A DNA stretch of 64,000 nucleotides, from positions 29,102,651 through 29,166,650 of the forward strand of contig OX387603.1 of the NCBI GenBank assembly GCA_947568835.1, in the 5' to 3' direction. The stretch is from Protonemura montana (taxonomy: Eukaryota > Arthropoda > Insecta > Plecoptera > Nemouridae). Every line of letters starts with the position of its first letter. The stretch's first letter is position 1. The notes under the pieces are model-generated. The model was given only the letters and a program-made list of their open reading frames with translations, ran no database searches and was not told the DNA's origin. A program made the position numbers and the translations under genes. Positions 1 through 54,085 of this stretch are shown here, in pieces.

Positions 1-347
1 TGGGAACTACTGCCCCAGCGCTACCTAGTGCTGCACTGGGAACTACTGCCCCAGCGCTACCTAGTGCTGCACTGGGAACTACTGCCCCAGCGCTACCTAG
101 TGCTGCACTGGGAACTACTGCCCCAGCGCTACCTAGTGCTGCACTGGGAACTACTGCCCCAGCGCTACCTAGTGCTGCACTGGGAACTACTGCCCCAGCG
201 CTACCTAGTGCTGCACTGGGAACTACTGCCCCAGCGCTACCTAGTGCTGCACTGGGAACTACTGCCCCAGCGCTACCTAGTGCTGCACTGGGAACTACTG
301 CCCCAGCGCTACCTAGTGCTGCACTGGGAACTACTGCCCCAGCGCTA
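1..347. repeat. 36-bp minisatellite, about 9.6 copies, cut by window edge
   Basis: Near-identical 36-bp units run from the first base to 347. One unit reads TGGGAACTACTGCCCCAGCG followed by CTACCTAGTGCTGCAC. Because 36 is a multiple of three, the unit stays open as a 12-residue repeat, which is not evidence of coding. The array continues beyond the left edge. Copies show almost no divergence, so the expansion is recent. Confidence 0.95.
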
Positions 348-805
348 ACGAGTTAACTTGACTGCGTATTAATCGAGACCTGCCAGTTATAGTCATTACT
401 CATTAGGTAGGAACCTAAATCTTTACTCAGGTATCTTTTAAAAACGCAAAAATCTTTTGCCTTTTTGTTAAGATTTCCGTGGCGAGGGACACATGATGAG
501 TCTGTAAGAAAATTTTTGGAAGCCCGGCTTCGGCTGGGCACAGAAACGCTATGAGCACAAAGGGTTTTTTGACTGGTATTAGCGACGCATGTGCTATCTT
601 ATCATGCCAGTGTTGCGCACATATCTCACGCGTGACGTAATGTGACATTGATGAAGGTGGTGAAATATTGTCAAATAAGACTTGAGAACTTGTTAAATAC
701 ACGATTAAATATTACAATATACCAATACCCCATTGGAGTACCTAATATGAAGTGAAACAAGTGCATCAAACACAAATAATATCAGACTTAAAACAACGCC
801 TAACT
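348..805. other. No gene seen
   Basis: Mixed-composition sequence. It holds short open frames on the minus strand (up to about 90 codons) with no recognisable motif, splice signals or repeats. I see nothing to annotate here. Confidence 0.5.
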
Positions 806-807
806 GA

Positions 808-960
808 AAATTGCTGAAAATACACTAAAATCGGCCCAAAAAGCGAATGTCCAAGTAGCTCAATGGGTTAGAGTGCAACACCCGCAAAAGGGGGAGATCA
901 AGTGGAGATCGAGTCCCCGTTTGGGCATCAATTTCGAGATGGTTATATTGTTGATAATAA
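808..960 (+). mobile_element. tRNA-derived SINE, single diverged copy
   Basis: A tRNA-like head begins near 850 with GTCCAAGTAGCTCAATGGGT, which carries a good Pol III A box in a D-arm setting. A weak B-box region (GAGTCCCCGTTTGGGCATC) and an AT-rich GATAATAATT-type tail follow. About 40 bp before the head is the motif AATACACTAAAATC, shared with the copies near 27200 and 41500. The 5' bases before the A box and the 3' TTGGGCATC can pair as an acceptor stem. It is the unexpanded relative of the array at 27220-28111. Confidence 0.7.
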
Positions 961-994
961 TTAAACATTAACTGCATATTCTCATAATTCTCGT

Positions 995-1690
995 ATTCAC
1001 CGGTTCTCGTGATATCACTGAAGTTAAGCAACACTGAGCTGGGTCAAGTGTTGGTTGGGTGACCATCATACACATGACCAGTTCTGTTCGGGAGAGAGGT
1101 TGGAGGGATGAAAGTTAAGCAACACTGCGCTGGGTCAGGTATTGGATGGGTGACCATCATACACATGACCAGTTCTGTTCGGGAGAGAGGTTGGAGGGAT
1201 GAAAGTTAAGCAACACTGCGCTGGGTCAGGTATTGGTTGGGTGACCATCATACACATGACCAGTTCTGTTTGGGAGAGAGGTTGGAGGGATGAAAGTTAA
1301 GCAACACTGCGCTGAGTCAGGTATTGGATGGGTGACCATCATACACATGACCAGTTCTGTTCGGGAGAGAGGTTGGAGGGATGAAAGTTAAGCAACACTG
1401 CACTGGGTCAGGTATTGGATGGGTGACCATCATACACATGACCAGTTCTGTTCGGGAGAGAGGTTGGAGGGATGAAAGTTAAGTAACACTGCGCTGGGTC
1501 AGGTATTGGATGGGTGACCATCATACACATGACCAGTTCTGTTCGGGAGAGAGGTTGGAGGGATGAAAGTTAGTACAGGAACTTCATTCGCTTTGCTTAT
1601 CAACCTCTCGACAGCATGGATTTGTGGAGGAATCTTTCTTGTACCGTCCTTCGGAAGGGACGTTCAACCGGCGCATACCATCGGTACTTG
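995..1690 (+). mobile_element. 5S-rRNA-derived SINE (SINE3-like) with internal array
   Basis: The head (CCGGTTCTCGTGATATCACT, then GAAGTTAAGCAAC and GGTTGGGTGACC) matches the second half of 5S rRNA, including the A box and C box of its internal Pol III promoter. About six 91-bp copies of the head follow. They lead into the body shared with copies near 25600, 32600 and 48500 (AACCTCTCGACAGCATGGAT, then TACCGTCCTTCGGAAGGGAC). The 3' part of the body and the tail are lost after about 1690. Confidence 0.8.
1038..1575 (+). repeat. 91-bp tandem array inside 5S SINE, about 6 copies
   Basis: Each unit reads from AAGTTAAGCAACACTG through GGTATTGGATGGGTGACC and on to GAGAGAGGTTGGAGGGATG. The unit keeps the 5S A box and C box at natural spacing. 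Copies differ at only a few positions. Confidence 0.85.
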
Positions 1691-1721
1691 GAACTCTTAG
1701 AGAGGAGAATCCTACTTGCGG

Positions 1722-1850
1722 ATACTGAAAACTATCTCTGCCAAAAGGCTGAGAAGCGATAGTTTTTCGTTAATTCAAAGTTAATGTGAACGGATATTGA
1801 ATATTATCTTAGCCAAAAAGGCCAAAAAGCGATAGTTCTTCGATGATTCA
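1722..1850 (-). pseudogene. Two U2-snRNA-like fragments in tandem
   Basis: On the minus strand, ATCGCTTTTTGGCCTTTTTG then GCTAAGAT, and a second copy ATCGCTTCTCAGCCTTTTGG, resemble the 5' end of U2 snRNA (ATCGCTTCTCGGCCTTTTGG then CTAAGATCAAG). In the first copy the likeness continues further: ATATCCGTTCACAT lines up with U2 GTATCTGTTCTTAT. The repeats are about 80 bp apart and diverged, so these are U2-derived pseudo-sequences rather than a working snRNA gene. The same repeat recurs at 3183-3439, beyond the LINE fragment. Confidence 0.6.
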
Positions 1851-1879
1851 AAGAAAAGGTGAGAGGATAACTTGTTTAT

Positions 1880-2162
1880 TGTTTTAGCACATATTTATAA
1901 AAATTGTAGTCAATAAAAGATTACACAATCAAAATGTTAAAAAACATATACATTAAAAAGCCGACTAATGGCACGAGTAAAATAATAAAATATCAAGTCG
2001 TTTCTCAGTCTTCATTTCGGCGAGTGCCAGCCGCCGCCAGCCCGACGACCCGACGCCGGACCCGTACCGCGACAGCAGCTTTCCTCGGAGCAGCGCCGTG
2101 CCCAACCTCTACAGCGACGCACACAAACTCCACGGTCCCGGGTCTAAGTCTACTGACGAAAG
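1880..2162 (-). other. Probable LINE 3' UTR (GC-rich part then AT-rich end)
   Basis: It directly continues the LINE 3' end on the minus strand, after the 74-bp array. It has a GC-rich stretch (about 2015-2160) and an AT-rich end. The plus strand of the GC-rich part also has an open frame of about 50 codons with GC-rich third positions, so a host exon is not excluded. I prefer the 3' UTR reading because of orientation and adjacency. Confidence 0.4.
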
Positions 2163-2898
2163 CCTAACAAGTGCTCAACGTAGACGTCCCGGGACCAATG
2201 GATGATGTCCGAGACCATGAGCCGGCTCATCAGTAGCCTAACAAGTGCTCAACGTAGATGTCCCGGGACCAATGGTTGATGTCCGAGACCATGAGCCGGC
2301 TCATCAGTAGCCTAACAAGTGCTCAACGTAGACGTCCCGGGACCAATGGATGATGTCCGAGACCATGAGCCGGCTCATCAGTAGCCTGACAAGTGCTCAA
2401 CGTAGACGTCCCGGGACCAATGGATGATGTCCGAGACCATGAGCCGGCTCATCAGTAGCCTGACAAGTGCTCAACGTAGACGTCCCGGGACCAATGGATG
2501 ATGTCCGAGACCATGAGCCGGCTCATCAGTAGCCTAACAAGTGCTCAACGTAGACGTCCCGGGACCAATGGATGATGTCCGAGACCATGAGCCGGCTCAT
2601 CAGTAGCCTAACAAGTGCTCAACGTAGACGTCCCGGCACCAATGGATGATGTCCGAGACCATGAGCCGGCTCATCAGTAGCCTAACAAGTGCTCAACGTA
2701 GACGTCCCGGGACCAATGGATGATGTCCGAGACCATGAGCCGGCTCATCAGTAGCCTGACAAGTGCTCAACGTAGACGTCCCGGGACCAATGGATGATGT
2801 CCGAGACCATGAGCCGGCTCATCAGTAGCCTGACAAGTGCTCAACGTAGACGTCCTGGGACGAATGGATGATGTCCGAGACCATGAGCCGGCTCATCA
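2163..2898 (-). repeat. 74-bp array of a LINE 3' end, about 10 copies
   Basis: Units of 74 bp differ at only one or two positions. On the minus strand each encodes MSRLMVSDIIHWSRDVYVEH followed by a few residues and a stop. This is the C-terminal motif of R2-like or NeSL-like LINE proteins. The innermost copy is continuous with the LINE ORF at 2822-3172, so the array is an amplification of the ORF end. 74 is not a multiple of three, so the array is not one long frame. Each unit also carries the 10-bp palindrome GAGCCGGCTC. Confidence 0.9.
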
Positions 2899-3172
2899 GG
2901 GCGCCGAATTGAGCACTGATACCAAGCACCTTTAGAACCGGCCCTTTGTCTGCATCCCAGGATCCCAGGGCCCCTGCGATGAATGCATCCAGCCGGATGG
3001 CCCGACCAGCACGCGTCAGTTTCATGGCAAGGTCTGCGTACTTTTCCACCTTGGCTTGGCTCGCCAGGTGGAAAGCTTCTAGCCGGTTTTCGAACGGAAC
3101 GGTGACATCGACGACGATAACAACCATCTTGTCAGCGTCGATGAGCACCAGATCCGGAGGAAGAGCCGACCT
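2822..3172 (-). mobile_element. LINE ORF C-terminus (R2/NeSL-like non-LTR element)
   Basis: About 117 codons on the minus strand contain PPDLVLIDADKMVVIVVDV, TVPFENRLEAFHLA, KVEKYADLA, FIAGALGSWD and a final MVSDII...YVEHLSGY. This order is typical of the endonuclease-side C-terminus of site-specific non-LTR retrotransposons with a restriction-like endonuclease. Reverse transcriptase and everything upstream are absent: the copy is strongly 5'-truncated, as LINE insertions usually are. The truncation point runs straight into U2-snRNA-like sequence. Confidence 0.75.
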
Positions 3173-3182
3173 AACATACTAA

Positions 3183-3439
3183 AAATTATCTCAGCAAAAA
3201 GGCTGAGAAGCGATAGTTTTTCGATGATTTAAAGTAAAAGTGAACTGATATTGAAAATAATCGCAGCCAAAAGGCCGAGAGCTTCCCAGAGCCTTGTTAA
3301 TCGTCACTGCAAAAGCCGGTCCGGACTCCGGAGAAGAAATGTTGGGCAGGGCTGTAAGGAGAAAAGAGGGAATTTTATTAGTTGGTTCTGAACAAGGTAT
3401 TTATTAGATAATCTTAGCCAAAGGGCTAATAAGTGATAG
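3183..3439 (-). pseudogene. U2-snRNA-like fragments upstream of the LINE
   Basis: Minus-strand motifs resemble the U2 5' end: CTATCGCTTCTCAGCC near 3215, CTCTCGGCCTTTTGGCTG near 3280 and CACTTATTAGCCCTTTGGCT near 3430. The middle copy continues with TTCAATATCAGTTCAC, as in the copies at 1722-1850. These are diverged partial copies, interrupted by unrelated sequence at about 3300-3405. Confidence 0.55.
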
Positions 3440-3840
3440 CGTTGAGTGTAGGTTATAGGTAGAGTTTCAACGTCAATGTTAAAGTCTCTGCGTGAAAAAT
3501 GACCACCTTACCGACAAAAATGCAGAGTACCGGACAATCACGTTAAGTGGAGCCACTGTCGTATGAATTTTAATTTCGATATTTCTTGTAGGTTAACTCG
3601 CTTTTGAAACTTTTCATGCTCAAAAAATCTTCATCAATGTTTACCTCAACGATTGATACACATGTAACGATATTCATAAGCGAGTAACCTACGAGAAATA
3701 TCAAAATTAAATTTCATGTTACAGTGGCTCCACTTAACGTGAACTTCCGGTACTCTGCATTTTTGTCGGTAAGGTAGTCATTTTTCACGCAGAGACTTTA
3801 ACATTGACGTTGAAACTCTACCTATAACCTACACTCAACG
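3440..3840. mobile_element. MITE / foldback DNA element, complete, 401 bp
   Basis: Two arms of about 170 bp are inverted repeats of each other. The ends are CGTTGAGTGTAGGTTATAGG and its complement CCTATAACCTACACTCAACG. A short AT-rich centre joins them. The 7-bp sequence GTGATAG stands at 3433-3439 and again at 3841-3847, a perfect target duplication. There is no ORF, so it is non-autonomous. The superfamily is unclear: 7 bp is unusual, and hAT or P would give 8. Relatives lie at 19895-20178 and 50112-50190. Confidence 0.9.
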
Positions 3841-3847
3841 GTGATAG

Positions 3848-5400
3848 TTATTTGTTTAATTGAATTAAGGACAGACAGATACTGAATAATTTCATAGCGG
3901 AAGTTCATAGCGGAAGTGCTCAGAACACAACGAGGTACTATAACCTAGGATACGTTCCATATCAAGTGCCGTCTTCGATTTGCATTTAAGCCGATATGTT
4001 TTGTCATGATCAATTACATAAAATGTAAGCAAATGCGACATCTATTTCTTTTGTCTTTGCTCTGGGAGCACGACATAACTTCAGAGCCTTGGCAATTGTC
4101 TGCACGCAAGAACATGAACATTAACGGGGTCTTCATTTCTTATGTAATATTATCAATCACATACTTTGTTGATTGGTGTTGTTAACACTGTACATAACAA
4201 TCACAACAATCACACAGGATAACAAAATATTAACAGGACTACAGGTTTATGATCAGCTTTTACTAATCAATATAACAACTACTTTGTATGCTTCAGTCGT
4301 TTAGTTTGTTTATTCTCACTTCAAAACTTCTACAAGAAATTAGGAATATGTTTTCGTACATTTTTTATTTATACATATTACAAAACCTCTCTTCCAACAC
4401 TTCTTTATGTATCTAATCAACGTTACTATATTTGAAATTTGGGCAGGAGATTTAATCTAAAAATTGCACTTGTAAATAGCCATTGTAAAAGCCTAGTGCG
4501 TTCGGCTACGAAATAGTGAAATTAAGTAGCTTTTACAAATGGTCGAAAGTATTGATTCTACTTCTATTGTAAAAGATTTGAACCATTTATAACATTACAA
4601 ACTAATTATATTAATAATTTTCCTAGATAAAGTCTGACCAGAACATTTTAAATTTGGGTTTTTTATTCCCAGTAATAATTGCAGATAGAGAAACTCCGTC
4701 TTGTATCATCCTGAATGGTATAGAAAATAAAATATTTATCTTTAACTTTTGCCAAGCGGTGTAGTCCCGGGTGTAAGTGCCGGGTGTAAGTGCCGGGTGT
4801 AAGTGGGTTCCCTGCATACTCGAACATTTACATGAATTATATAAGCTGGTAAACTTGTTCAAAAATCATTGCAATTGCCCATTTTTTGTTGCAACTCAAT
4901 GTAAAGTTTGTTGCACAGAACTTGACCATCAATGAAAGTGTTCAGAAGTGATATTAAGGGAAAACAAACTGCCGCCAGTATTCTTTACAACTGTAGTGAA
5001 GTAATTAAATTAAATAAATAAATCAATTCATAATAACATCCCTGGCTCACTTTCTGGTATTGATTTACAATTCTCCACTTTGATTATGTATAAAAATAAC
5101 TTCCTGTGCATACAGCAACCACGATTACATTGGAAATAAAGTGAATAATGTGTTTCCGACCCCCCCCCCCCCCTCCCCCCCTGTTCATTCAGTCTCTGTT
5201 TGAGACAACAGTTAGCAGCTAGAATTACAACTGGAGGTTGTTAGAAAAGTATCTCTGATCATTTCCATTACATACCAAGTGCTTTTCAGTCTAATAATAT
5301 TGTTCTGTTCTGCAGCACGTTAGAACCTGTCTTCCTACTTTCTCGATACTGCTTAAAAATATTTCCAGCACCGAGCTGTGCATTCCTCCACAATAGCTAG
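3848..5400. other. Intergenic, no gene seen
   Basis: AT-rich sequence downstream of the zinc-finger gene. Small features are a doubled CATAGCGGAAGT (3893-3919), three copies of a 13-bp GTGTAAGTGCCGG unit (about 4770-4802) and a C-rich homopolymer run (about 5161-5181). No coding or RNA gene is recognised. Confidence 0.5.
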
Positions 5401-5420
5401 CGCATTATTCTTCTACATGT

Positions 5421-5426
5421 TTTATT
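5421..5426 (-). terminator. Poly(A) signal of the zinc-finger gene
   Basis: AATAAA on the minus strand, about 45 bp beyond the stop codon at 5471-5473. This gives a short 3' UTR. Confidence 0.5.
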
Positions 5427-5470
5427 AAATGACTTGTGGCTTGCCAATCGGAGTTGTGACAGCTTACGAT

Positions 5471-8314: not shown

Positions 8315-8539
8315 CTGCAATAAAATGAAATGAAGTGCGAGGTAAGTGTCGGCTAAATAACCACTGGCATTACATTTCTTTATAAGGAGGATGCAACTCG
8401 ACTGGTAGGATGCCTCCCACACAGTATCTTTGGCACCCCCATGGTCCACTAAGCCATCGGTATCAAAAAGTTCCTTAAAATATGAGTGATAATTTTACTT
8501 TCTACTTCAACTTTGCACCATAACTGAGTGTGATGATCT

Positions 8540-8600
8540 CCGAATCAGAGCCTGACCCATCTCATGTTGCTTAACTTCAGTGATCCCATAAGAATCGATT
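8540..8600 (-). mobile_element. Old 5S-SINE head fragment
   Basis: On the minus strand GATCACTGAAGTTAAGCAAC matches the 5S-derived SINE head, including the A box. The following C-box region (GGGTCAGGCTCTGATTCGG) is decayed. No body or tail is seen. Confidence 0.45.
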
Positions 8601-9646: not shown

Positions 9647-12600
9647 ATGGCTCTGCACGTCCCTAAAGCCCCGGGCATGGCCCAAATGATGAAAGACGGA
9701 GCGAGGGTAAGTTTTTAATACATTTTCGTCTCCTACTTTTGTTCAAAATGTGAAGTATTTCGCGTTTGAAGTTCGTTTGGGACATGCTTCCTTTGCTTCC
9801 ATAAATGGCATGCAAAGACAGGCCGGCGTGACTGCATGTGGGTGTGGGAGTCATGCACTGTGCATCTGTTCATGCGTTTTCATTTTGATAGGAAAGTATC
9901 TAATAATATTCTCTCCTTTTTTTAGCATTTCTCTGGTCTGGAAGAAGCTGTCTATCGAAATATCAGCGCTTGCAAAGAGTTTGCACAAACTGTCCGAACG
10001 GCCTATGGTCCGAATGGCATGAACAAAATGGTCATTAACCACATTGAAAAACTGTTTGTAACAAACGATGCTGCGACAATTATGCGAGAGCTGGACGTTG
10101 AGCACCCTGCAGCTAAATTGATGATTCTGGCCTCGGAGATGCAGGAGCAGGAAATTGGTGACGGAACCAATTTTGTCATCATTTTTGCTGGGGCTCTGCT
10201 GCAAGAAGCAGAAGATCTTTTGAGGATGGTAACATTTCCTGAAGTTGTATTTGTTGTTGAGTTGCTGAAACTATAAACTTTCAATTAGGATTCTATGCTA
10301 ATATGCTGTTTTTCCTTGTCAGGGGGTTACTGCATCAGAAATCACCGAAGGATTTGAGATTGCTCTTGACAAGGCATTAGAAATCCTGCCAAATCTGTCA
10401 TGCTTCGAGTTAAAGGATTATCGAAATGAAGCCGAGGTGGTAAAGGGTCTGAAAACAGCGATTATGAGCAAGCAATATGGAAATGAAGACTTCCTTGCCA
10501 AGCTGATTGCACGAGCTTGTGGTGAGATAATATATTTATTTATAGTACTTAGCTTTGTACTTAAAAGCAGTTCATTGTCTAGTAAAGTTGCGTTACTCCA
10601 GGCCATGATCCAGTGAGTGCCGGCATGCTTTGGCTGCCCCCTGAATGTGCAAAGTCGGGCCGTCAACGAGGTTGATGGGTGTGAAAGATCAATAGCCGAC
10701 AAAAATTCACGTGAAACCCAAAATTGAACCGCGTTCGCACGAGATTCAAACCGATTCCCTTTCGAACTTTGCGTTGCCATTTAGGAATTCTGACATGACC
10801 GCAACCGCTTACCTACAACAGTGCATTTCCAGCAATTTTTAAACTCGTGCAACATCCACAACATTTTCCAAAAATCAGGGTTTCAAAAGTAAACTGCTCC
10901 AAAATCAAGAGAGGAATCTGAAAGGACCATCAAAACCAAAGTGCGAACTATCAAAACTGAGATGCGACCAAAATAAATCATGGCCCGGAATAAATAAGAC
11001 AATTTTACCCATTGTTTTATATAAAATTATTGAAACTTGAAAAAACCGTTTGTGTGCTGTTACCAGTGTCCATCCTACCCGAGAACACTGCATTCAATGT
11101 TGACAACATCCGAGTGTGCAAGATTCTCGGCTCGGGTATGCTTAACTCGGAGGTGGTGCAAGGAATGGTCTTCAAACGCAGCGTCGAGGGTGATGTCACA
11201 AAGCAGATGCAGGCCAAGATTGCTGTCTACACTTGCGCCATCGACATCATTCAAACAGAGACCAAGGTTCGTGCATTCTCCTTGACAGAAAGTAGTGACA
11301 CATAAACAACTGTCTGCTGTTCCCTTTGCTTTGAGTACTTCTCTACCTTCAGTTCACAGCGCCATCACACAACGTGCCATTTAACTTTCAAAGTTGAATT
11401 TATCAGCCTTTGTTGACAATACGAGCTGTCCAACAATCAAATATAAGTAATGAGCAATGTAGCTAAAACCTAAGCAAATATAGGTGGTGTAGTAATGTTG
11501 CTAAAACCTGAGCAAATATAGGTGGTGTAGTAATGTAGCTAAAACCTCAGCAAATATAGGTGGTGTAGTAATGTTGCTAAAACCTCAGCAAATATAGGTG
11601 GTGTAGTAATGTTGCTAAAACCTGAGCAAATATAGGTGGTGTAGTAATGTTGCTAAAACCTAAGCAAATATAGGTGGTGTAGTAATGTTGCTAAAACCTC
11701 AGCAAATATAGGTGATGTAGTAATGTTGCTAAAACCTGAGCAAATATAGGTGGTGTAGTAATGTAGCTAAAACCTCAGCAAATATAGGTGGTGTAGTAAT
11801 GTTGCTAAAACCTGAGCAAATATAGGTGGTGTAGTCATGTAGCTAAAACCTGAGCAAATATAGGTGATGTAGTAATGTTGCTAAAACCTAAGCAAATATA
11901 GGTGGTGTAGTAATGTTGCTAAAACCTGAGCAAATATAGGTGATGTAGTAATGTTGCTAAAACCTAAGCAAATATAGGTGGTGTAGTAATGTTGCTAAAA
12001 CCTCAGCAAATATAGGTGATGTAGTAATGTTGCTAAAACCTAAGCAAATATAGGTGGTGTAGTAATGTTGCTAAAACCTCAGCAAATATAGGTGGTGTAG
12101 TAATGTTGCTAAAACCTAAGCAAATATAGGTGGTGTAGTAATGTTGCTAAAACCTCAGCAAATATAGGTGGTGTAGTAATGTTGCTAAAACCTGAGCAAA
12201 TATAGGTGATGTAGTAATGTAGCTAAAACCTCAGCAAATATAGGTGGTGTAGTAATGTTGCTAAAACCTGAGCAAATATAGGTGGTGTAGTAATGTTGCT
12301 AAAACCTGAGCAAATATAGGTGGTGTAGTAATGTTGCTAAAACCTGAGCAAATATAGGTGGTGTAGTAATGTTGCTAAAACCTGAGCAAATATAGGTGGT
12401 GTAGTAATGTTGCTAAAACCTGAGCAAATATAGGTGGTGTAGTAATGTTGCTAAAACCTGAGCAAATATAGGTGGTGTAGTAATGTTGCTAAAACCTGAG
12501 CAAATATAGGTGGTGTAGTAATGTTGCTAAAACCTAAGCAAATATAGGTGGTGTAGTAATGTTGCTAAAACCTCAGCAAATATAGGTGATGTAGTAATGT

Positions 12601-15600
12601 TGCTAAAACCTGAGCAAATATAGGTGATGTAGTAATGTAGCTAAAACCTGAGCAAATATAGGTGGTGTAGTAATGTTGCTAAAACCTGAGCAAATATAGG
12701 TGGTGTAGTAATGTTGCTAAAACCTAAGCAAATATAGGTGGTGTAGTAATGTTGCTAAAACCTCAGCAAATATAGGTGGTGTAGTAATGTTGCTAAAACC
12801 TAAGCAAATATAGGTGGTGTAGTAATGTTGCTAAAACCTGAGCAAATATAGGTGGTGTAGTAATGTTGCTAAAACCTGAGCAAATATAGGTGGTGTAGTA
12901 ATGTTGCTAAAACCTAAGCAAATATAGGTGGTGTAGTAATGTTGCTAAAACCTCAGCAAATATAGGTGGTGTAGTAATGTTGCTAAAACCTGAGCAAATA
13001 TAGGTGGTGTAGTAATGTTGCTAAAACCTCAGCAAATATAGGTGGTGTAGTAATGTTGCTAAAACCTCAGCAAATATAGGTGATGTAGTAATGTTGCTAA
13101 AACCTGAGCAAATATAGGTGATGTAGTAATGTAGCTAAAACCTGAGCAAATATAGGTGGTGTAGTAATGTTGCTAAAACCTGAGCAAATATAGGTGGTGT
13201 AGTAATGTTGCTAAAACCTAAGCAAATATAGGTGGTGTAGTAATGTTGCTAAAACCTCAGCAAATATAGGTGGTGTAGTAATGTTGCTAAAACCTAAGCA
13301 AATATAGGTGGTGTAGTAATGTTGCTAAAACCTGAGCAAATATAGGTGGTGTAGTAATGTTGCTAAAACCTGAGCAAATATAGGTGGTGTAGTAATGTTG
13401 CTAAAACCTAAGCAAATATAGGTGGTGTAGTAATGTTGCTAAAACCTCAGCAAATATAGGTGGTGTAGTAATGTTGCTAAAACCTGAGCAAATATAGGTG
13501 GTGTAGTAATGTTGCTAAAACCTCAGCAAATATAGGTGGTGTAGTAATGTTGCTAAAACCTAAGCAAATATAGGTGGTGTAGTAATGTTGCTAAAACCTC
13601 AGCAAATATAGGTGGTGTAGTAATGTTGCTAAAACCTGAGCAAATATAGGTGGTGTAGTAATGTTGCTAAAACCTAAGCAAATATAGGTGGTGTAGTAAT
13701 GTTGCTAAAACCTGAGCAAATATAGGTGGTGTAGTAATGTTGCTAAAACCTAAGCAAATATAGGTGGTGTAGTAATGTTGCTAAAACCTGAGCAAATATA
13801 GGTGGTGTAGTAATGTATCTAAAACCTAAGCAAATATAGGTGGTGTAGTAATGTATCTAAAACCTCAGCTTTATTCGGAGTTATCTTGCTGCAGGGTACA
13901 GTGCTGATCAAGACTGCCGATGAGCTGATGAAGTTTTCTCGTGGTGAGGAGTCGATGCTTGAGGAGCAGATCAAGTCCCTGGCTGCTGCGGGTGTCAACG
14001 TCATTGTGGCTGGAGCCAAGTTTGGCGACATGGCCCTGCACTACATCAACAAGTACAAGATGATGGCCGTGCGACTCAACAGCAAGTTCGATGTCAGGCG
14101 GCTCTGCAAGGCCGTCGGAGCAACTGCTCTGCCACGACTGGTGAGTTATTAGTTGGCCTACTTTCACTTCAACGCAATGTTTGTTAGTCAAGACTTGACT
14201 TGCTCGGTGGTTACTGACCAGACCACTTAGTGAGACACCTTAAACATTCACTGAGCTACTTTTTGCCAATTATTGGTCAAAATGATATTTTCTTAAAAAT
14301 ATTTTAAAAACAATTTTGCTTGTTTGCCAATATTTCAAACTTACTATCTTTTGAAACTTAACTTATTTTTAACTTTTACTCAAAAGTGGTGAAGCTTTTA
14401 AGGCTACTTTTAAACAATTTTGAACGGACAATTAATTTTACTCTCTTGAGCAATATTTTAACCACAATAACAAGTATTAAAACTAAATGTATTTTATAAA
14501 TATGTATTATTGACAAACGACACAAAGTGTATCACCCTATATATATACATTATTTTTTATTGAACTTATCTAAATAAGTTAAATATGTACATAATTTAGT
14601 TTTATAATTTTACTATTTGACTTTTTTTATATCATGTAATATGATCAATCATGGAATAAAAAATAAATACAATACAATTACATAACCAGACCAAACTTTG
14701 CAAGCAACATACACCTTGACTAAAAACTGTTGGTCTACAGGTCTCTTACACTGCCCCAGTGCTATTAGGTAACATTCTTGAAGTGATTTTTCTAGTTTTT
14801 TGGCTGTATTCAAGATTGAACATGTGATTGATTTAAAAGGCAGGGGCCATGCATGTCTGCCCCATTGTAAGAAGGTTGACATATCTGTGCATAGAATGGC
14901 TAGACGCTAAGCCTACTTGTTTGCAGACTCCTCCCACTCGAGAGGAGCTGGGCTTTGCAGACACCGTGGTCACAGACGAGCTTGGAGACACGGTTGTGGT
15001 CATCTTCCGTCTTGAGGGCAAGGAATCTCGCATAGCAACTGTTGTCGTGCGTGGATCCACAGACAACTACATGGACGACATAGAGCGAGCTATCGATGAT
15101 GGCGTCAACACTTTCAAGGGTAAGATATGTTGACCCATGAGCTGACCATTCAAAGTCCCTATCAAAGAGGAGACTTTGGATGAAGTGGTACATCTATTGA
15201 TCAATTCACGATATAAGTTCAACCGATTCATTGCTTCTAGTCCTTCCAACTGGCTGGATTTCAATAGTTTAGGATAAAAGGTTTTACGTGTTTTGTTTGG
15301 AGGAGACCTCTCCCACTCAACTGTCATGAATCCTCCCCACCCCCTCCCTTAAGATGCTACTGTAACTATAGAATAATTAATCTTGTTGTCTCTCATACAA
15401 GGAATCACCAAGGATGGCCGCTTTGTGCCTGGTGCTGGTGCCTCCGAGATCGAACTGGCTCGGCAGATTGCCTCATTCGGAGACACCAAGCCTGGCCTGG
15501 AGCAGTATGCCATCAAGAAGTTTGCCACCGCGCTCGAGTACTTTGCCAAGACGTTGGCCGAGAACACGGGAGTGAAGGCCAACGAGGTGATATCGCAGCT

Positions 15601-16523: not shown

Positions 16524-16529
16524 CTTTCC

Positions 16530-17326: not shown

Positions 17327-42789
<25,463 letters not shown>

Positions 42790-42904
42790 AGCCAAGGGTA
42801 CGTATCCATGGCGACACTACGGCCAGCACACATTTAAACTCTTCCTCGAACGTCGGCGACTCTGTACTCCAAGACATCTATCGTAATGAGCTTTTGCGTG
42901 AAGG

Positions 42905-45774: not shown

Positions 45775-46752
45775 CATTGAAAATTTCACAGATGATAAAG
45801 TACGTGATAGGCTTTCGATCCGTGATGGTCCTAATTTTTGGCCCAGCCTAGGACAAAAAAAGGCTAACTTTTACAAAATTTGTGTTATCATTTATTTGCG
45901 AGAAAATGAAGGGGGGCTACTCCCTTGAAATTTTCACAGATGATAGAGTACGTGATAGGCTTTCGATCTGTGATGGTCCTAATTTTTGGCCCAGCCCTGG
46001 ACAAAAAAAGGCTAACTTTTACAAAATCTTTGTTATCATTTATTTGCGAGAAAATAAAGGGGGGCTACTCCCTTGAAATTTTCACAGATGATAGAGTACG
46101 TGATGGGCTTTCGATCTGTGATGGTCCTAATTTTTGGCCCAGCCTTGGACAAAAAAAGGCTAACTTTTACAAAATTTGTATTATCATTTATTTGCGAGAA
46201 AATGAAGGGGGGCTACTCCCTTGAAATTTTCACAGATGATAGAGTACGTGATAGGCTTTCGATCTGTGATGGTCCTAATTTTTGGCCCAGCCCTGGACAA
46301 AAAAAGGCTAACTTTAACAAAATTTGTGTTATCATTTATTTGCGAGAAAATGAAGGGGGGCTACTCCCTTGAAATTTTTACTGATGATAGAGTACGTGAT
46401 AGGCTTTCGATCTGTGATGGTCCTAATTTTTGGCCCAGCCTAGGACAAAAAAAGGCTAACTTTTACAAAATTCTTGTTATCATTTATTTGCGAGAAAATG
46501 AAGGGGGGCTACTCCCTTGAAATTTTCACAAATGATAGAGTACGTGATAGGCTTTCGATCTGTGATGGTCTAAATTTTTGGCCCAGCCTTGGACAAAAAA
46601 AGGCTAACTTTTACAAAATTCTTGTTATCATTTATTTGCGAGAAAATGAAGGGGGGCTACTCCCTTGAAATTTTCACAGATGATAGAGTACGTGATAGGC
46701 TTTCGATCTGTGATGGTCTAAATTTTTGGCCCAGCCCTGGACAGAAAAAGGC
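45775..46752. repeat. 148-bp tandem repeat, about 6.6 copies
   Basis: Units begin TTGAAATTTTCACAGATGAT and end GAAAATGAAGGGGGGCTACT. They differ by a few substitutions each. A frame of up to 99 codons spans neighbouring units because the unit has few stops; 148 is not a multiple of three, so no continuous protein is encoded. Confidence 0.95.
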
Positions 46753-46972
46753 TAATTACTTTGAGATAAATTTTGAAAAAAATGTGCGTATTTATTAAAC
46801 AGACCTATTTTGTGAAGGGCGAGGATAGGGAGAGATCACTGCAGCAAAAAAAAACACCTCGCATATAATTGTTTGTTATCTAATTAATTGAATTAAAAAA
46901 ATACATGGTAAATTACTAGATATAAAAAAGTGAATTGTGAAAAAGTGAACAAGAGATGAGAGTATTTTGGCT

Positions 46973-49339
46973 TTACATGCGTACGTTCATGTTCGTACCC
47001 TGGACAGGGTTCATCATGGTCGTACCCTGTCCAGGGTACATCATGTTTGTACCCTGTCCAGGGTACATCATGTTTGTACCCTGTCCAGGGTTCATCATGG
47101 TCGTACCCTGTCCAGGGTACATCATGTTTGTACCCTGTCCAGGGTACATCATGGTCGTACCCTGTCCAGGGTACAGCATGGTCTTACCCTGTCCAGGGTT
47201 CATCATGGTCGTACCCTGTCCAGGGCACATCATGTTTGTACCCTGCCCAGGGTACAGCATGGTCGTACCCTGTCCAGGGTACATCATGGTCGTACCCTGT
47301 CCAGGGTTCATCATGGTCGTACCCTGTCCAGGGTTCATCATGGTCGTACCCTGTCCAGGGTTCATCATGGTCGTACCCTGTCCAGGGTTCATCATGGTCG
47401 TACCCTGTCCAGGGTTCATCATGGTCGTACCCTGTCCAGGGTACATCATGGTCGTACCCTGTCCAGGGTTCATCATGGTCGTACCCTGTCCAGGGTTCAT
47501 CATGGTCGTACCCTGTCCAGGGTACATCATGGTCGTACCCTGTCCAGGGTACAGCATGGTCGTACCCTGTCCAGGGTACAGCATGGTCTTACCCTGTCCA
47601 GGGCACAGCATAGTCGTACCCTGTCCAGGGCACAGCATGGTCTTACCCTGTCCAGGGCACGAACATGATGTACCCTCTTTAGAGTACTGCCGTTGTCGGC
47701 GTTGCCTATTTTTTGTTTGCGGCTTGATGGTGTTCGCCCGGCGCGTCCGCCGATTGTTTCGGGGCTTTGGTCCTGCGAACAATAAGTTTGCATGATATTC
47801 AAGTAATTCACACCGAAGGCGGTACCTTAGAAGATTCACCGCAGAGAGGGAAATATTTGTCTTTCTTATCCGCTAAATAGATTGAAAAATAGATGGATAG
47901 TACAGTTCCTCGTGGTACATACCTTTCCCCTTCGGCTGTGACGCCGTCGTTGTCGCCGTCGGCGAATTGGCCGGCGCTTTCGATGACGGCGGCGGCGGTG
48001 GTGGACAGAACCACCACGGTTCTGTCTGCGACTGCGGTGGTGGTGAGGCCATTGGGCTGGACATTGCTTGATACTTGAATGAAAACAAATTAATAGGTTT
48101 TTTTTTTAATTACGCAAACACGGTTTACCCACATTTACACCAGGAAGTAAGAGGTCCACAGGTACTAGGCTTTGGTCATGCGAACAATAAGTTAGCATGA
48201 TATTCAAGTAATTTACACCGAGGGCGGTATAGTCCAGGAATATCGACGGCAAAAAGGGGCGTGACCGTATGTGAACACGCCTGTATGTTTTGGTGGTTTT
48301 TTTTAATGTCTTCCGATGAAAATTTTTTGTCCGGATTATTATTATTATTATTATTTGTGGTGTTTAACGACGCACTGTTTTGACAACTGGCCCTGCGGCA
48401 CTGGTCTAATGGCGTCGGTGAATGAGTGGATGATGATGAGGATGATGATGAACCTAACCTAGCCTAGAAAGGAGGAGGGGCAACCCGGTGCCGGCACGTA
48501 GCCTACTCCTGTCGAACAGCACCAAGGGGACCATCGGCTTTACGTCCCTTCCGAAGGACGGTACAATGCGAACGACAGAATTTCTCCACAAATCCATGCT
48601 GTCGAGAGGTTGATAAGCAAGGCGAATGAAGTTGCTGTACTAACTTTCATCCCTCCAACCTCTCTCCCGAACAGAACTGGTCATGTGTATAATGGTCACC
48701 CATTCAATACCTGACTCAGCGCAGTGTTGCTTAACTTCGGTGATCTAACGAGAACCGGTGTTTCCAACACGCCAAACCGTTCGGTTTGTCCGGGTTTGTG
48801 ACATTAGTTGTGTCATAGTGTTAGGCATATAATATCAAAATTTCAGGTTTTTATAACACCGAATATCCTAACTTCTCTATTTGAAGAGATAGCCACTCGA
48901 TATTCCTACCTTAGAAGATATTCCTATCTTATCCGGTAAATAGATTGAAAAATAGATGGATAGTACAGTTCCTCGTGGTACATACCTTTCCCCTTCGGCT
49001 GTGACGCCGTCGTTGTCGCCGTCGGCGAATTGGCCGGCGCTTTCGGCGACGGCGGCGGTGGTGGTGGACAGAACCACCACGGTTCTGTCTGCGACTGCGG
49101 TGGTGGTGGTGGTGGTGGTGGTGGTTCTGTCTGCGACGGCGGTGGTGGTGAGGCCATCTGGGTTGTATAATTATTGCTTGAAACTTGAAAGAAAATAAAT
49201 AAATAGGTATTTTTAATTACGCAAATACGGTTTACCCACTTTTACACCAGGAAGTAAGAGGTCCACAGGTAGAGATGTAGATGTATATGATTGACTTACC
49301 ACTGCTCGCGGTCATCATTGCAGAATGAGCTGGCTGCAT
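46973..49339 (-). CDS. Candidate Thr/Pro-rich protein with 9-residue C-terminal repeats
   Basis: Unrecognised. Minus-strand exons chosen by GT-AG sites and compatible phases are 49339-49300, 49157-48986, 48056-47923 and 47772-46973. The model starts MQPAHSAMMTASS, then a Thr/Ala-rich, then acidic part (TTTAVADRT, FADGDNDGVTAEGE). Next comes a Pro-rich part (MASPPPQSQTEPWWFCPPPP, ASQPKGK), a basic KPRNNRRTRR...NRQRRQRQ segment that may be a nuclear signal, and about 25 repeats of the type NPGQGTTMM/YPGQGTTML. Exons 2 and 3 are copies of one another read in different frames. The open frame through the repeats is weak evidence, since the 27-bp unit has no stops. The gene could belong to a mobile element or be non-functional. 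Confidence 0.35.
46994..47660. repeat. 27-bp minisatellite, about 25 copies
   Basis: The unit reads CATGGTCGTACCCTGTCCAG then GGTTCAT. Many units contain TACCCTGTCCAGGGTA, an inverted repeat with 7-bp arms and a 2-bp centre. On the minus strand it reads as the 9-residue PGQG repeat of the candidate gene. Confidence 0.97.
47761..49268 (-). repeat. Tandem duplication of an exon-bearing segment
   Basis: The segment CCTGTGGACCTCTTACTTCC...exon...TATTGTTCGCAGGACC occurs twice on the minus strand. One copy is 48159-47761; the other is 49268-48165, enlarged by a SINE insertion. The two exons are about 90% alike. The acceptor at the end of the upstream copy has changed from GCAGGACC to GCATGACC, so only the downstream copy keeps a usable site. 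Confidence 0.8.
48335..48784 (-). mobile_element. 5S-derived SINE, complete single-unit copy, 9-bp target duplication
   Basis: TTTGTCCGG stands at 48326-48334 and 48785-48793. Between them is a 450-bp element in minus orientation. It has the 5' end CCGAACGGTTTGGCGTGTTG, a 5S-like head (CCGGTTCTCGTTAGATCACC, GAAGTTAAGCAAC, TGAATGGGTGACC), a body with GTACCGTCCTTCGGAAGGGA, a GATGATGATGAGGATGATG-type stretch and an (ATT)n tail at 48335-48355. With one head unit only, it shows the ancestral form of the family. Confidence 0.92.
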
Positions 49340-49470
49340 GGACAACGGCACACTCAACACCGGTGGTGGGTCTAATATTTTACTCAACCAATCACAGCAT
49401 TTAGATAAAAATTCTAAACCAATCGTGAGTCTTGTGCCAATGTGAACAGCCATGACGTCATACTCACAAG
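49340..49470 (-). promoter_or_regulatory. Possible promoter: CRE and two CCAAT boxes
   Basis: Upstream of the candidate start at 49339 are a palindromic CRE TGACGTCA (49453-49460) and two CCAAT words (49388-49392 and 49419-49423, read as ATTGG on the minus strand). The grouping and spacing are promoter-like. An open minus frame also runs through here from 49531, so the start could be further upstream. Confidence 0.4.
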
Positions 49471-49626
49471 CTGGCTTAGCACAAGTCGCGAGTTTAGCAG
49501 CTATGATATAATTTCGGGGAACTTTTTGCAAATTGCAAACCTAGCAATACATAGTCTTACATATCTAGCATACATGCATCCCCGCTAATACTGGCGCATG
49601 TCGACGCCGGACGATAAGCAGTAGCC

Positions 49627-49746
49627 ATGGACTTCGACGCCGACCCCTATCCCTTGCCGGCTGGGTCGCCCTTTTTGGGCGTCAAATCCGATGAGCTCGT
49701 CGAGGTGCTTCCAGCCTGGTTAGATACATACGATGCCTTAGGATAG
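49627..49746 (+). CDS. Small ORF or first exon, 39 codons
   Basis: ATGGACTTCGACGCCGACCC opens a 39-codon frame, MDFDADPYPLPAGSPFLGVK then SDELVEVLPAWLDTYDALG, with GC-rich third positions unlike its surroundings. It lies head-to-head with the minus-strand candidate gene. No family is recognised. It could be the first exon of a gene or a fragment of a mobile element. Confidence 0.25.
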   Translation: MDFDADPYPLPAGSPFLGVKSDELVEVLPAWLDTYDALG

Positions 49747-49859
49747 GGCGAAGTTCAAGGGAAGACGCCGGCCGTGACCACCAAGCGAGCCGTCATGGAA
49801 ACAGCATGGAAACAGCCACCATGAATCGATGTGACAGTTTTTTAAACAGCCACGGAAAT

Positions 49860-50110
49860 CTGTATCATAAACAAATAAAATCATAAATAATTCTGATTTC
49901 GACAGGTCCAGCGAACTTCACATCAAATCTTTTATAAATCTGTTATCTTTCACATCTTTCAAGTGATAAATTAGTTAAAATTAGTAATATTCATGAACAC
50001 AAAACTAGAAATGCCAAATTAAATTACTATCTACATCTCTCTAATAAAGACAAAACCGAAAAAGTCACTATTTTATCATTTTTTACTATAATTTTCACTA
50101 TTTATAAGTT
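49860..50110. other. AT-rich spacer, nothing seen
   Basis: Low-complexity AT-rich sequence without motifs. Confidence 0.4.
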
Positions 50111-50111
50111 T

Positions 50112-50190
50112 AATATCGTGACGTGTGTATCAATCGTCGAGGTACACATTGATGGAGATTTTTTGAGCATGAAAAGTCTCAAAAGCGAGA
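50112..50190 (-). mobile_element. MITE internal fragment (third copy)
   Basis: GTGTGTATCAATCGTCGAGG and ATTTTTTGAGCATGAAAAGT match the complement of the central part of the MITE at 3440-3840 (near 3600-3680). The terminal arms are missing. Confidence 0.75.
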
Positions 50191-50679
50191 TGGTGCACGC
50201 ATATCGGCGTGCAATGGTGTTTCCTACGTTTAATCGCGAATGCTGTAAGTGTCAAACTATTTCAAACCTCGGGGAACTAGAAGGTACGTTGAAAACACCG
50301 ATTGGGTCCCACTAAGATTTCATAATGTTTATATCGTTAAAGAAGCGTTATATCGTTGAGAAGCGTTCTTTGGTGGTGCCCTAGCAGCCAGCTACTTTGT
50401 TTTGTATCTGATAAGCTATAATCCTCGTATCCTGCCGACTCGACTCACTCGTGGGCCAGCGCGGGTAATAGCTTGTTTCATAATATGCTAGCGTATGTTA
50501 GATTGTATAACGAACAGATCCGAGCGACCAGCCAGTTTGGTCGAGTTTTCGCTATTTCTGGAATTTGTCCTGTTTCATAATGTCCGTAAGATGTGTCTTA
50601 ACTCATAAGAGACCTCATAAAGGAGGGATGCAAATCATACTCGTTGAGACTTTAGCTCAGTGTTGGCGAAATCGTGGTT

Positions 50680-50704
50680 ACAATAATAATAATAATAATA
50701 ATGT
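50680..50704. repeat. AAT microsatellite
   Basis: Seven or so AAT triplets in a row. It lies just past the 3' end of the minus-strand LINE remnant, so it may be that element's tail. Confidence 0.8.
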
Positions 50705-50866
50705 TTTTAATTCCGTTTAAACACATCGTGCCATCGTGCCAAGTTCAAAGTATTACATTTAGGTGACCAACAATTAAACAACATATACGTCTTATGTATC
50801 CATAGCAACATTTTTAGGTACTATAATATTTACATTTACACTACAATTTTTCATTGTCTCTACCTT

Positions 50867-51133
50867 TTACAATAAAACATCTTTTACAGTATAAAAACAT
50901 TTTTCAAGTAGAAAATTCTTGAGCACAATTTTGAATTTCTTGTCCTTTTTGATTTGAAGATCCGCCGGCAATGCCCTATAAAGCTCACAACCCGCATAGG
51001 TGGGCCCCCTTTTATAATTTTGAAAAGCTGGTTTATCCAGTTTATAGTTAATTTTATGTCTAGTGTTAAATAACCCTTTGCCTGTCCCCATCAGAGTGTA
51101 ACCGTAAATCCATTTCTTTACATTTTTTACTTG
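50867..51133 (-). mobile_element. LINE reverse-transcriptase C-terminal remnant
   Basis: On the minus strand KKWIYGYTLMGTGKGLFNTR leads to HKINYKLDK, RGPTYAGCELYRALPADL and FKIVLKNFLLEKCFYTVKDV. The order NTRH...Y...YAG..LY..LP......FK..LK..L....FY is the usual C-terminus of jockey/CR1/RTE-type LINE proteins. It differs from the R2-like fragment at 2822-3172. It is 5'-truncated, and the 3' UTR runs down towards the AAT tract near 50700. Confidence 0.65.
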
Positions 51134-51459
51134 AAAGCCTCAAACAAACTAACCCCTTGTCGTGCATGCTTTGTCTTATAGAGATGGACTAGCCTGCCTT
51201 TTTTACTCCGTACATAGTAGTACTCTGTAACTCTGCAGAGAAATTGAATCAAAAAAATTATTACGACTTCGTTACATCCCTATCTTTTATGCAACTGGCT
51301 TCGTGTGCTTTGAAACCCAATGTGAGGAAAAAGACCTGTCCCTGGCAGATGGAAAAACAAAACTAAGTGTCACTAAAAACCACTAAAGCTTGAACCTGTA
51401 CAACAGCAAAATTTAAAAAAATAACGTTTTATTTATCAAGTGAAACCGGAACCTTTTTA

Positions 51460-51650
51460 TACTTAAAGCCGGAATCAGAACCCTTATTTGAGAAAATTAG
51501 GAACCGGAACCGGAACCGGAACCCCTCTTCACAATATGGAACCGGAACCGAAACCGGAACCTTTAAAAACGTAAAACCGGAACCAGAACCAGAACCCTAA
51601 TTTGAAAAAATTAGGAACCGGAACCGGAACCAGAACCTTTTATCATTTCG
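51460..51650. repeat. GGAACC short-period repeat region
   Basis: Runs of GGAACCGGAACC (6-bp period) are interspersed with CCTTTTTATAC and AATTTGAAAAAATTAGG-type words, repeated about three times with variation. Confidence 0.8.
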
Positions 51651-51717
51651 GTTCGGGTCCCTGGTACCATCGACTCGCTTATCGCGCTTCTACCCTTTGT
51701 CGGTCAGCGCCGCTACA

Positions 51718-51741
51718 CTTTGTCGGTCAGCGCCGACAAAG
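51718..51741. repeat. Perfect 9-bp hairpin
   Basis: CTTTGTCGG and CCGACAAAG flank TCAGCG. A further direct copy of CTTTGTCGGTCAGCGCCG lies at about 51695-51712. Confidence 0.6.
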
Positions 51742-52385
51742 CAACGCGACAGTATGGAACAAAGACAACTACTGGGTATAGGGTGGATTTTTTCTAGTTA
51801 CTGAATGAGATATTGTAGGCAAAATAAAACATTTACGATGAATTTTATGCTTGATAGGATGTATTGCCGTTTAGGATTTTTACAGCCTTTTGAGTCTTAG
51901 ATCCGCCCCTGAGCGCACACACAGCTCATTCCGAATGAGTCAATCACCAATATCCAGCTAAAGCTCGATTCGAAAATGCAAACACATCTCTTACTGCTAA
52001 TACCCGTGTGAGTATTTTTTCGAAATGAGCAACTGTTAGACTCAATATTTTCGATCGTCGCCTACAATTTACATGGAACGGATGAGAGAGTTGAGGCTAG
52101 TGGGTTTCCAGCGTAAATTTTTGTCCAACAACCCAGCAAGAAATGATTATGGAAATGAAACGATCGTGCATCTTAATGTCAGATGCTGGGGCTCAATTTT
52201 CAATTGCCAAGTGTTGTTCAACAATAAACATAAAAAAAAGGAACGACTGTGCAAACGATCTTGATCTTTTAAAACGATCTTTTAAAATGATCTTTTGAAA
52301 GATCGTAAAAAATTCGAGCGCGATCAAATTAAAAGATCGTCTTACACAAAAAAGATCGCGATCAGTTCGAAGATCACTAAAAAAT

Positions 52386-52540
52386 GCATGCTGCAAGTGT
52401 TGCATTCATTGCATGCTGCAAGTGTTGCATTCATTGCATGCTGCAAGTGTTGCATTCATTGCATGCTGCAAGTGTTGCATTCATTGCATGCTGCAAGTGT
52501 TGCATTCATTGCTTGCTGCAAGTGTTGCATCACGCATTGC
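52386..52540. repeat. 25-bp minisatellite, 6 copies
   Basis: GCATGCTGCAAGTGTTGCAT then TCATT is repeated, the last copies slightly changed. It is preceded (52250-52375) by a stretch rich in the palindromic word GATC within AT-rich sequence. Confidence 0.95.
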
Positions 52541-52799
52541 ATGCTGCAACTGACTTTTCTCACAAACAACGTCGCATCAAGAATGTGCCTCTTTACCGAA
52601 GTATCTTCTGACATTAAATGAAATGCGTCTTTATTTAAATGAAAATTTTATCGCATTTCAACACCGTTAATAAGCAGCCTATCAGATGCAAACAGCTCAT
52701 GATGGATACTAGACATTAGATCCACAGTTTTACTACCTTTTATGAAGCTTGACCTCTTAACAAGTATCTTCCTTGAAATCCTTGAAATCGTTGAATTTA

Positions 52800-53990
52800 C
52801 CTGCAGTATCTTTATACCACAGTCTGGAAGTTAAATGCGTTTTTTTTAGCTGATGAACCAAAGTTCAGTAAAGTTTCAATATATGCTCGATAACCATAAG
52901 TGTGTGAAGGCGATGATATCAGTTTACCATTCAATGAGACCTCCACTTGCGAAAACAAACTATGCATCCAGTTATTGACCGGTCCGGTCACAACTTTATC
53001 ATCAGCAATTAAATTAGTACCATCTGCTTTGGTAATTTTTGCTGTTAAAAGGAGCTCTGTGTATGCAAGATCAATGAACTCATTGCCATTATTATTTACA
53101 ACAAACTCGAATTGTGCATTTCCTTCCAAAGACACAATAGGTTTCTATGCTGCTTTGTATCCATATTCGATGGCTGCTTGTGTTAAAGGTGTTGTGAAAA
53201 GATCGAGCTCAGATTTCATAGCCTCCATCGAATTGCTATGTATAACAGACATTTTCACTTTTCAAAAATATCTCGCACTCTTCTCGATAACTTGATCTTC
53301 TTGGTGGTTTTCTTGCGTTGATGACTCGAAGATTGTCTCTTCTTCTTTTTAACAACAACAGCCTTCCTACCACGGTTGCCCGGCACCAACTGAAGTGATT
53401 GCCAGCTTTTCAATCGTTTAAGACCCTTCATAAGAGTTTATCTTCGGCTTTTAGTTTAAGATTCGAACCAGCTTCCTTCAATCTATTTTCAAACGATTGT
53501 TTCACATTTTTTCTTTCCATTAAATCATTTGCAAAATTTACTCCAGTCATGAGTCCTTCTTGAGCAAGAGATCGAGCTCTACTTTTAAATATCGGTACTG
53601 CTAATCGCCACATATTTTAAAAAAATAACGCTAGTCCATAAACACGCTGAAATTAGTTACCGTGATATATATTCATTCCCGATCCACATTGATTTTGGAA
53701 ATAATCAGTGTATCGATCATGATAGTTACTGCTTTTACACATTTTAAATCTAGTGACGACGACGTCGGAAATGTAGTACAACGCTTAGAACATTACAATC
53801 GAATGAGATTGAATCACCAAATGCATCTCTTATTTCTATAGTAATCGATGAAAACTCTCGTTTAGCTGCCGGAAAATACATTGGTGTATTAAAAGACTGT
53901 GAATGATTTCTTCCATATTTTTCCTTGTACCAGAGAGTATCTATGCTAATCATTCGTGCGAGTAGCGCAAATATATCGCCCATTACGTGT
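52800..53990 (-). mobile_element. Polinton/Maverick-type capsid segment, broken fossil
   Basis: Minus-strand order, right to left: a piece (53983-53750) ending like a Polinton minor (penton-type) capsid protein; a small basic protein region (about 53613-53290) of the kind found between the capsid genes; and the N-terminal part of a double-jelly-roll major capsid protein (about 53258-52812), which includes the SELDLFTTPLTQAAIEYGY region and the later SLNGKLISSP. The gene order fits Polintons. The rest of the element (polymerase, integrase, ATPase, terminal repeats) is not in view. It is a broken remnant with a few breaks. Protein likeness is still clear, so it is of moderate age. Its upstream side abuts the 30-bp satellite. 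Confidence 0.65.
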
Positions 53991-54085
53991 GATTCAAAAA
54001 CATCACAATAAACAAGAAGCTGCTTTTAAAACACTACATTCAAGCGGGATTTGTGTGGAGACGTTTTATCAGCAACAATATTCAT

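Follow-up and report, generated by a model that had tools for sequence, protein, structure and literature searches.

Tandem arrays of mobile-element parts and intron sequence in the outer chromosome regions of Protonemura montana

Arrays built from parts of dispersed elements

The window considered here is the whole stretch of 64,000 nucleotides between positions 29,102,651 and 29,166,650 of contig C2 of Protonemura montana (assembly of 258.5 Mb, 34 contigs). As C2 spans 29.81 Mb, the window lies 0.64-0.70 Mb from the contig end. It contains a CCT8 gene (Pfam TCP-1, 70.6 bits; best PDB match, T-complex theta) and a kinase gene (Pfam Pkinase, 69.7 bits) that we take to be RSK. The tandem arrays listed in this text, called with Tandem Repeats Finder, cover 42% of the window when small arrays are counted in. 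A sequence-only reading of the same DNA had proposed that four unrelated mobile elements each seeded arrays here: a short interspersed element (SINE) with a 5S rRNA head, a tRNA SINE, a miniature inverted-repeat transposable element (MITE) and a long interspersed nuclear element (LINE). All four kinds of array are confirmed, and the head-to-tail units of the 5S, tRNA and MITE arrays match part of dispersed elements; the identity of the LINE found no support in Pfam. The arrays concerned, with the unexpanded copies and the other element parts of the window, are the following.

1021-1572, plus strand: 5S-SINE array a, 91-bp unit, 6.1 copies
25799-26167, minus strand: 5S-SINE array b, 91-bp unit, 4.0 copies, with the SINE body and the 5S head flanking the array
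32825-33194, minus strand: 5S-SINE array c, 91-bp unit, 4.1 copies, flanked in the same way by SINE body and 5S head
36349-39114, minus strand: 5S-SINE array d, 91-bp unit, 30.5 copies, with multi-unit blocks
about 48332-48794, minus strand: unexpanded 5S SINE; the equivalent of the 91-bp unit is 48641-48731, with TAACTT at each edge
27220-28105, plus strand: tRNA-SINE array, 52-bp unit, 17 copies
about 849-927, plus strand: tRNA-like part of a single-unit tRNA SINE (by eye)
about 41543-41616, plus strand: tRNA-like part of a single-unit tRNA SINE (by eye)
3440-3840, plus strand: unexpanded 401-bp MITE, with target duplication GTGATAG at 3433-3439 and 3841-3847
19898-20130, plus strand: partial MITE body, adjoining a 47-bp array
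20131-22442, plus strand: MITE terminal-repeat array, 47-bp unit, 49 copies
24392-24671, plus strand: second 47-bp array, 6 copies, without MITE body
2161-2899, minus strand: 74-bp array, 10 copies, overlapping the end of a LINE-like open reading frame (ORF; 2822-3178, minus strand)

The head of the 5S SINE is derived from 5S rRNA (Rfam RF00001, 64.4 bits, whole model covered); in SINEs with such a head, a shared central domain (Nin-DC) would be expected. A consensus of 458 bp was drawn from 30 unexpanded loci, the window copy among them, and may include flank of at most about 10 bp at either end. Within it, the 91-bp unit begins about 67 bp in from the 5' side, and about 300 bp separate its end from the tail side. 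The unit is therefore internal to the SINE. The unit had been described as the head of the element; arrays are indeed found in four SINE copies, but the interior place of their unit in the consensus rules out, for 5S, a mechanism that acts on element ends. Genome-wide, 23,969 unit-unit junctions and 7,555 exit junctions, at which a unit passes into the SINE body, were counted with at most one mismatch. The two edges of the unit share the direct repeat TAACTT, at a spacing of 91 bp, and 94 of the 56,175 point pairs in the consensus (0.0017) match such 6-bp sharing. Because of this direct repeat, slippage fits the 5S unit as a seed.

The 52-bp unit of the tRNA SINE opens with the tRNA-like part, and ARAGORN called no tRNA gene at 849-927 or 41543-41616. 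Since all three tRNA-SINE copies of the window have a common sequence upstream of the tRNA part (CACTAAAATC, by eye), the unit does not lie at the element edge. The 52-bp array is real, but its derivation from an element head, as first described, is not upheld. Unit-unit junctions number 13,938 genome-wide (up to two mismatches).

The 401-bp MITE has terminal inverted repeats, and its two strands match at 84-87%. A perfect 7-bp target duplication, with the motif GTNNNAC, accompanies 28 of 30 MITE copies; of the other two, one was skipped for its mutated end and one has a mismatch. The copies surveyed are the one at 3440-3840 and those of the fetched loci L040-L068 (all fetched loci, numbered L, amount to less than 0.2% of the genome). 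The derivation of the 47-bp unit from the outer terminal repeat, as read from the sequence alone, is borne out, the final base of the unit being the final base of the MITE. The matching segment of the unexpanded window MITE is 45 bp long and shows several differences, so that this copy is a relative and not the exact parent. Unexpanded copies of the window had been said to give the parent sequences; such copies are present for the 5S and tRNA SINEs, and for the MITE the window holds this relative. Genome-wide, the MITE unit forms 11,525 unit-unit junctions (up to two mismatches). The unit opens with GTTTAAC, whose likeness to the target motif was spotted before scoring. Within the array-bearing MITE this heptamer is the best match to the motif (rank 1 of 274); its score is reached by 0.2% of the heptamers from three interior stretches of 10 kb. 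CTAGAAC, in the same array-bearing MITE, scores 5.6 versus 5.7 for GTTTAAC, yet it forms no unit edge, and the corresponding heptamer of the unexpanded subfamily ranks only 3 of 395.

Some observations on MITEs stand apart from these results. On distal C5 (L055 845-2170), a MITE with the target duplication CTCCAAC lies within a 5S array of 91-bp units, and 43-bp arrays with one common unit lie beside MITE copies on C14 (L040 2717-3011) and C13 (L042 1-283). A strand bias of the MITE arrays was considered, all of the 100 junctions listed being on the plus strand, and was dropped because the list appears sorted by strand; minus-strand arrays missing from it occur in the same C1 stretch (971 kb).

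The minus-strand ORF at 2822-3178 may be part of a LINE of the restriction-like endonuclease type, as judged from a motif. A Pfam search with its 118-aa fragment returned no family, and the fragment gives weak matches to two loci that bear reverse transcriptase, L004 and L005 (E 3.6 and 4.8). No unexpanded copy of the 74-bp unit was found, and its junctions number 10 genome-wide: nine lie in the window, and the tenth is at a distance of 1.07 Mb on the same contig. The 74-bp array is thus almost unique. As a separate observation, the first Mb of C11 holds seven of the eight top-scoring reverse-transcriptase matches in the genome.

The genome-wide junction counts were paired with a reversed-pattern control, which gave 0 for the 5S, MITE and tRNA units. 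With controls of 0 against thousands of junctions, the window arrays are not due to chance. The idea of a genome-wide process is thus upheld by the counts for these three units, but not by the 10 junctions of the 74-bp unit. That the process acts on element ends was not upheld: one of the four units is clearly terminal, and a private 38-bp intron sequence has expanded likewise.

Position along the chromosomes

In all three positional comparisons, with contig ends taken as chromosome ends, array density was highest near the contig ends. Four ends were inspected, and telomere-like repeats were seen at one of them: the last 2 kb of C1 (L071 1-2000, C1:33120742-33122741) are pure (GGTTT)n. This suggests a TTTGG telomere repeat, such as that reported in the rice weevil Sitophilus oryzae (PMC12134996). 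At the three other ends there is a 98-bp array (start of C1), a run of unresolved bases (start of C2) and a 30-bp array (end of C2). We infer that the contig ends correspond to chromosome ends.

Runs of three exact 91-bp units were found at 51 places, which merge into 32 loci. Of these, 27 are no more than 3 Mb away from a contig end, the largest distance being 4.74 Mb. For runs of five exact 47-bp units, there are 145 places; the 100 listed merge into 42 loci, of which 41 are within 3 Mb and the farthest is at 4.05 Mb. For the unexpanded elements, the sets consist of the 40 best matches to one window copy per element, after window copies were dropped and neighbours merged. Only 5 of 39 (5S) and 7 of 38 (MITE) of these lie within 3 Mb of a contig end, and the distances of arrays and unexpanded copies differ accordingly (Mann-Whitney p 2e-8 for 5S and 1e-12 for the MITE). 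The share of the 11 large contigs that lies within 3 Mb of an end is 27%.

The second comparison was made on C1, with exact matches up to 25.1 Mb, the point at which the list of 100 junctions stops. Array loci number 21 in the first 3 Mb versus 10 beyond, and SINE exits 18 versus 62 (Fisher test, 1.5e-5 with 5-kb merging, 9e-5 with 2 kb and 6e-5 with 10 kb). An exact unit-unit junction is found within 2.5 kb of 7 of the 18 SINE exits of the first 3 Mb, versus 2 of the 62 beyond. The third comparison used 62 fetched stretches, picked for unexpanded elements or at set positions, in which arrays were defined by a period of at least 20 and a score of at least 250. Arrays make up 29.4% of the bases at 0-3 Mb from an end, 1.3% at 3-6 Mb and 0.8% beyond 6 Mb; they are present in 6 of 9, 2 of 14 and 3 of 39 stretches, respectively. 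As for the tRNA unit, the first 100 exact junctions listed are all on C1, at 0.54-1.12 Mb and 28.9-31.6 Mb, with further runs at 19-26 Mb. Chromosome position seems to be a better predictor of expansion than element ends.

The window holds eight further arrays that the sequence-only reading had not named in this connection.

1-347, plus strand: 36-bp array, 9.6 copies, truncated by the window start
11438-13869, plus strand: 38-bp array, 64 copies, in a CCT8 intron
29988-32240, plus strand: 46-bp array, 49 copies, in an intron of the kinase gene
34081-34693, plus strand: 29-bp array, 21 copies; unit also arrayed at 400 kb of C3 (L075)
40361-40926, plus strand: 114-bp array, 5 copies; unit also arrayed in L010 (C12)
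45777-46755, plus strand: 148-bp array, 6.6 copies
46987-47676, plus strand: 27-bp array, 25.6 copies
54088-64000, plus strand: 30-bp diverged array; a similar array occupies all of the final 2 kb of the contig (L069)

All 63 genome matches to the junction of the 38-bp unit (up to two mismatches) are at the CCT8 intron site. The 46-bp array takes up nearly the entire kinase intron: it begins just after one splice site and stops a short way ahead of the following one (by eye). The 29-bp units of C3 and C2 are 93-99% identical (full-length matches with a three-unit query), and the 114-bp unit, besides its array on C12, has shorter matches in L076 and L042. The 36-, 46-, 148- and 27-bp units have no match among the fetched loci. 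Element-assigned sequence makes up about 10% of the array-collapsed window, yet 8 of the 15 arrays counted lie in it (binomial p 3e-5, with the terminal 30-bp array omitted), an enrichment that is biased upward because the element list was partly drawn from arrays.

Small nuclear RNA sequences were also noted. A U5 match lies at 423-540 (62.8 bits, above the gathering score) and a weak U2 match at 1699-1833 on the minus strand (26.8 bits, below the gathering score). More U2-like pieces were seen by eye beside the LINE-like ORF and the MITE. The stretches noted for these sequences are, in all, 423-540, 1699-1869 and 3180-3440.

Growth, seeding and alternative origins

In arrays b and c, units 2-4 differ by 0.007 among themselves and by 0.073 from the first, head-proximal unit. 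Nearest relatives lie within the same array for 24.1 of the 30 units of array d and for 15.9 of the 21 units of L075. These private changes within b, c, d and L075 suggest that arrays have grown in place. The head-proximal unit is the odd one in seven of the eight unit groups that have at least three units, array d being the exception; this could also mean that the arrays share a dimer ancestor.

It can be proposed, with a probability of about 0.6, that the outer ~3 Mb of the chromosomes form a zone where nearly any sequence can give rise to short tandem duplications, which then grow. An element copy located in this distal zone could become a dimer via short homology. The 5S SINE dimer may have been seeded through the TAACTT repeats, 91 bp apart, and the MITE dimer perhaps through homology between the flanking 7-bp target duplication and the target-like heptamer inside the terminal repeat. 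Some element copies may already have been dimeric, and intron sequence would expand likewise. The array would then be lengthened and made uniform in place by unequal exchange, gene conversion or slippage. That many arrays stem from elements would reflect how common elements are. Both these seeding steps and recombination as the driver are what we infer. A stronger version, in which chromosome address and not the element decides between single copy and satellite, so that the outer ~3 Mb would be a bounded satellite nursery for several classes and the target preference of the MITE would itself build the seed homology, is tentative and seems to us rather doubtful.

Several observations weigh against the proposal of a distal zone of duplication and growth. 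In the comparison of exact arrays with unexpanded copies, arrays were picked for exactness and single copies for likeness to one window copy; as the selection criteria differ, so may the ages of the two sets, and old arrays or old single copies may be placed differently. A distal 10-kb stretch located 0.63 Mb from the end of C16 (L077) is without array, L010, L034 and L042 carry arrays far from contig ends, and the interior of C1 has runs of tRNA junctions at 19-26 Mb, few and mostly short. Units of array a and of L021, L028 and L055 are mostly not nearest to units of their own array. Thousands of 5S junctions have identical unit limits, an identity that independent births would not require. 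As for the seeds, TAACTT is only one of 19 direct repeats of at least 6 bp in the 5S consensus, and longer ones exist; homology at the unit edges, judged by eye, is 2 bp for the tRNA unit and 0-1 bp for the 74-bp and the 38-bp units. With edges of 0-2 bp in these three, no single seed rule applies to all units, and position is their common factor.

Alternatively, elements that already bear arrays (a SINE with a duplicated head, a Foldback-like MITE whose ends are filled with repeats) may transpose as such, with subfamilies that insert or survive near the ends. Unit limits that stay constant across very many 5S junctions are in line with this explanation, as are the odd head-proximal unit of seven of the eight groups, expected from a shared dimer ancestor, and the exact junctions at some interior SINE sites of C1. 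We nonetheless consider it unlikely: most units of d, L075 and c have their nearest relatives in their own array, the two MITE arrays of the window have the same orientation and do not form an inverted pair, and there is no mobile carrier for the 38-bp intron array. It is less probable still that the arrays are satellites of old element ancestry, spread between chromosome ends by ectopic exchange or circle re-insertion. The 29-bp unit arrayed at distal sites of both C2 and C3 with 93-99% identity, the 114-bp unit arrayed on both C2 and C12, and the 47-bp array at 24392-24671, devoid of MITE body, would be accounted for in this way, but arrays b and c lie inside SINE copies that retain both sides, the 38-bp unit is private and the 74-bp unit nearly so. 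In particular, rolling-circle re-insertion does not suit b and c, because the rest of the same SINE copy is kept on both sides of the array.

For the 47-bp unit, nested self-insertion can also be envisaged, in which a MITE would insert into the GTTTAAC of another copy's terminal repeat and leave exactly one extra unit. The idea draws on the first rank of GTTTAAC as a target (1 of 274, with 0.2% of interior heptamers scoring as high) and on the other unit edge, which is the last base of the element. The second junction that it predicts was not found in the genome, where the one match is poor (three mismatches, two of them at the junction). Moreover, CTAGAAC, with nearly the same score (5.6 versus 5.7), is no edge, the heptamer ranks third of 395 in the unexpanded subfamily, and slippage from the target duplication to the inner heptamer could give an identical unit. 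Nested self-insertion is therefore rejected as very improbable. Double insertion is reportedly a mechanism discussed by McGurk and Barbash in 2018.

Relation to known systems

An element that is mostly single in the chromosome interior and often expanded near the ends provides a natural experiment: as the sequence is constant and the position varies, seeding, which depends on edge homology, can be separated from growth, which depends on recombination, replication timing and chromatin. Tandem repeats derived from transposable elements (TEs) are already known, and the new part is the positional split across several classes. In the open-licence literature, covered mostly through titles and listings, no paper was found that describes the expansion of several TE classes near chromosome ends and takes unexpanded copies as the control.

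In human, 23% of minisatellites and satellites are reported as TE-derived, and 6% of those as explained by two established mechanisms (PMC3389668). The sources of TE-derived tandem repeats have been tabulated and include tRNA regions of SINEs, terminal repeats of MITEs and ORF2 of LINEs (PMC9659126). The arrays described here resemble these TE-derived minisatellites in that portions of elements (SINEs, LINEs and DNA elements) are turned into tandem units that multiply by local duplication. They differ in that several classes are concerned in one genome, with uniform arrays distal and single copies not (PMC3389668; PMC9659126). A satellite of the limpet Patella that derives from a Nin-SINE (PMC11121367) is alike in its SINE origin, but the SINE differs.

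In Xenopus, Xstir and miDNA4 form MITE arrays for which microhomology is the proposed cause (PMC12628747). As here, forms with the MITE, with the array and with MITE plus array are described; in P. montana, unlike in these systems, the unit comprises the outer terminal repeat as far as the last base and opens with a target-like heptamer. Finally, primate minisatellites are reported to be enriched near telomeres (PMC7767330), and the frequency of short-unit arrays near the ends is common to both cases. Unlike in the primate survey, thousands of copies of one element serve here as control, so that sequence is held constant while position varies.

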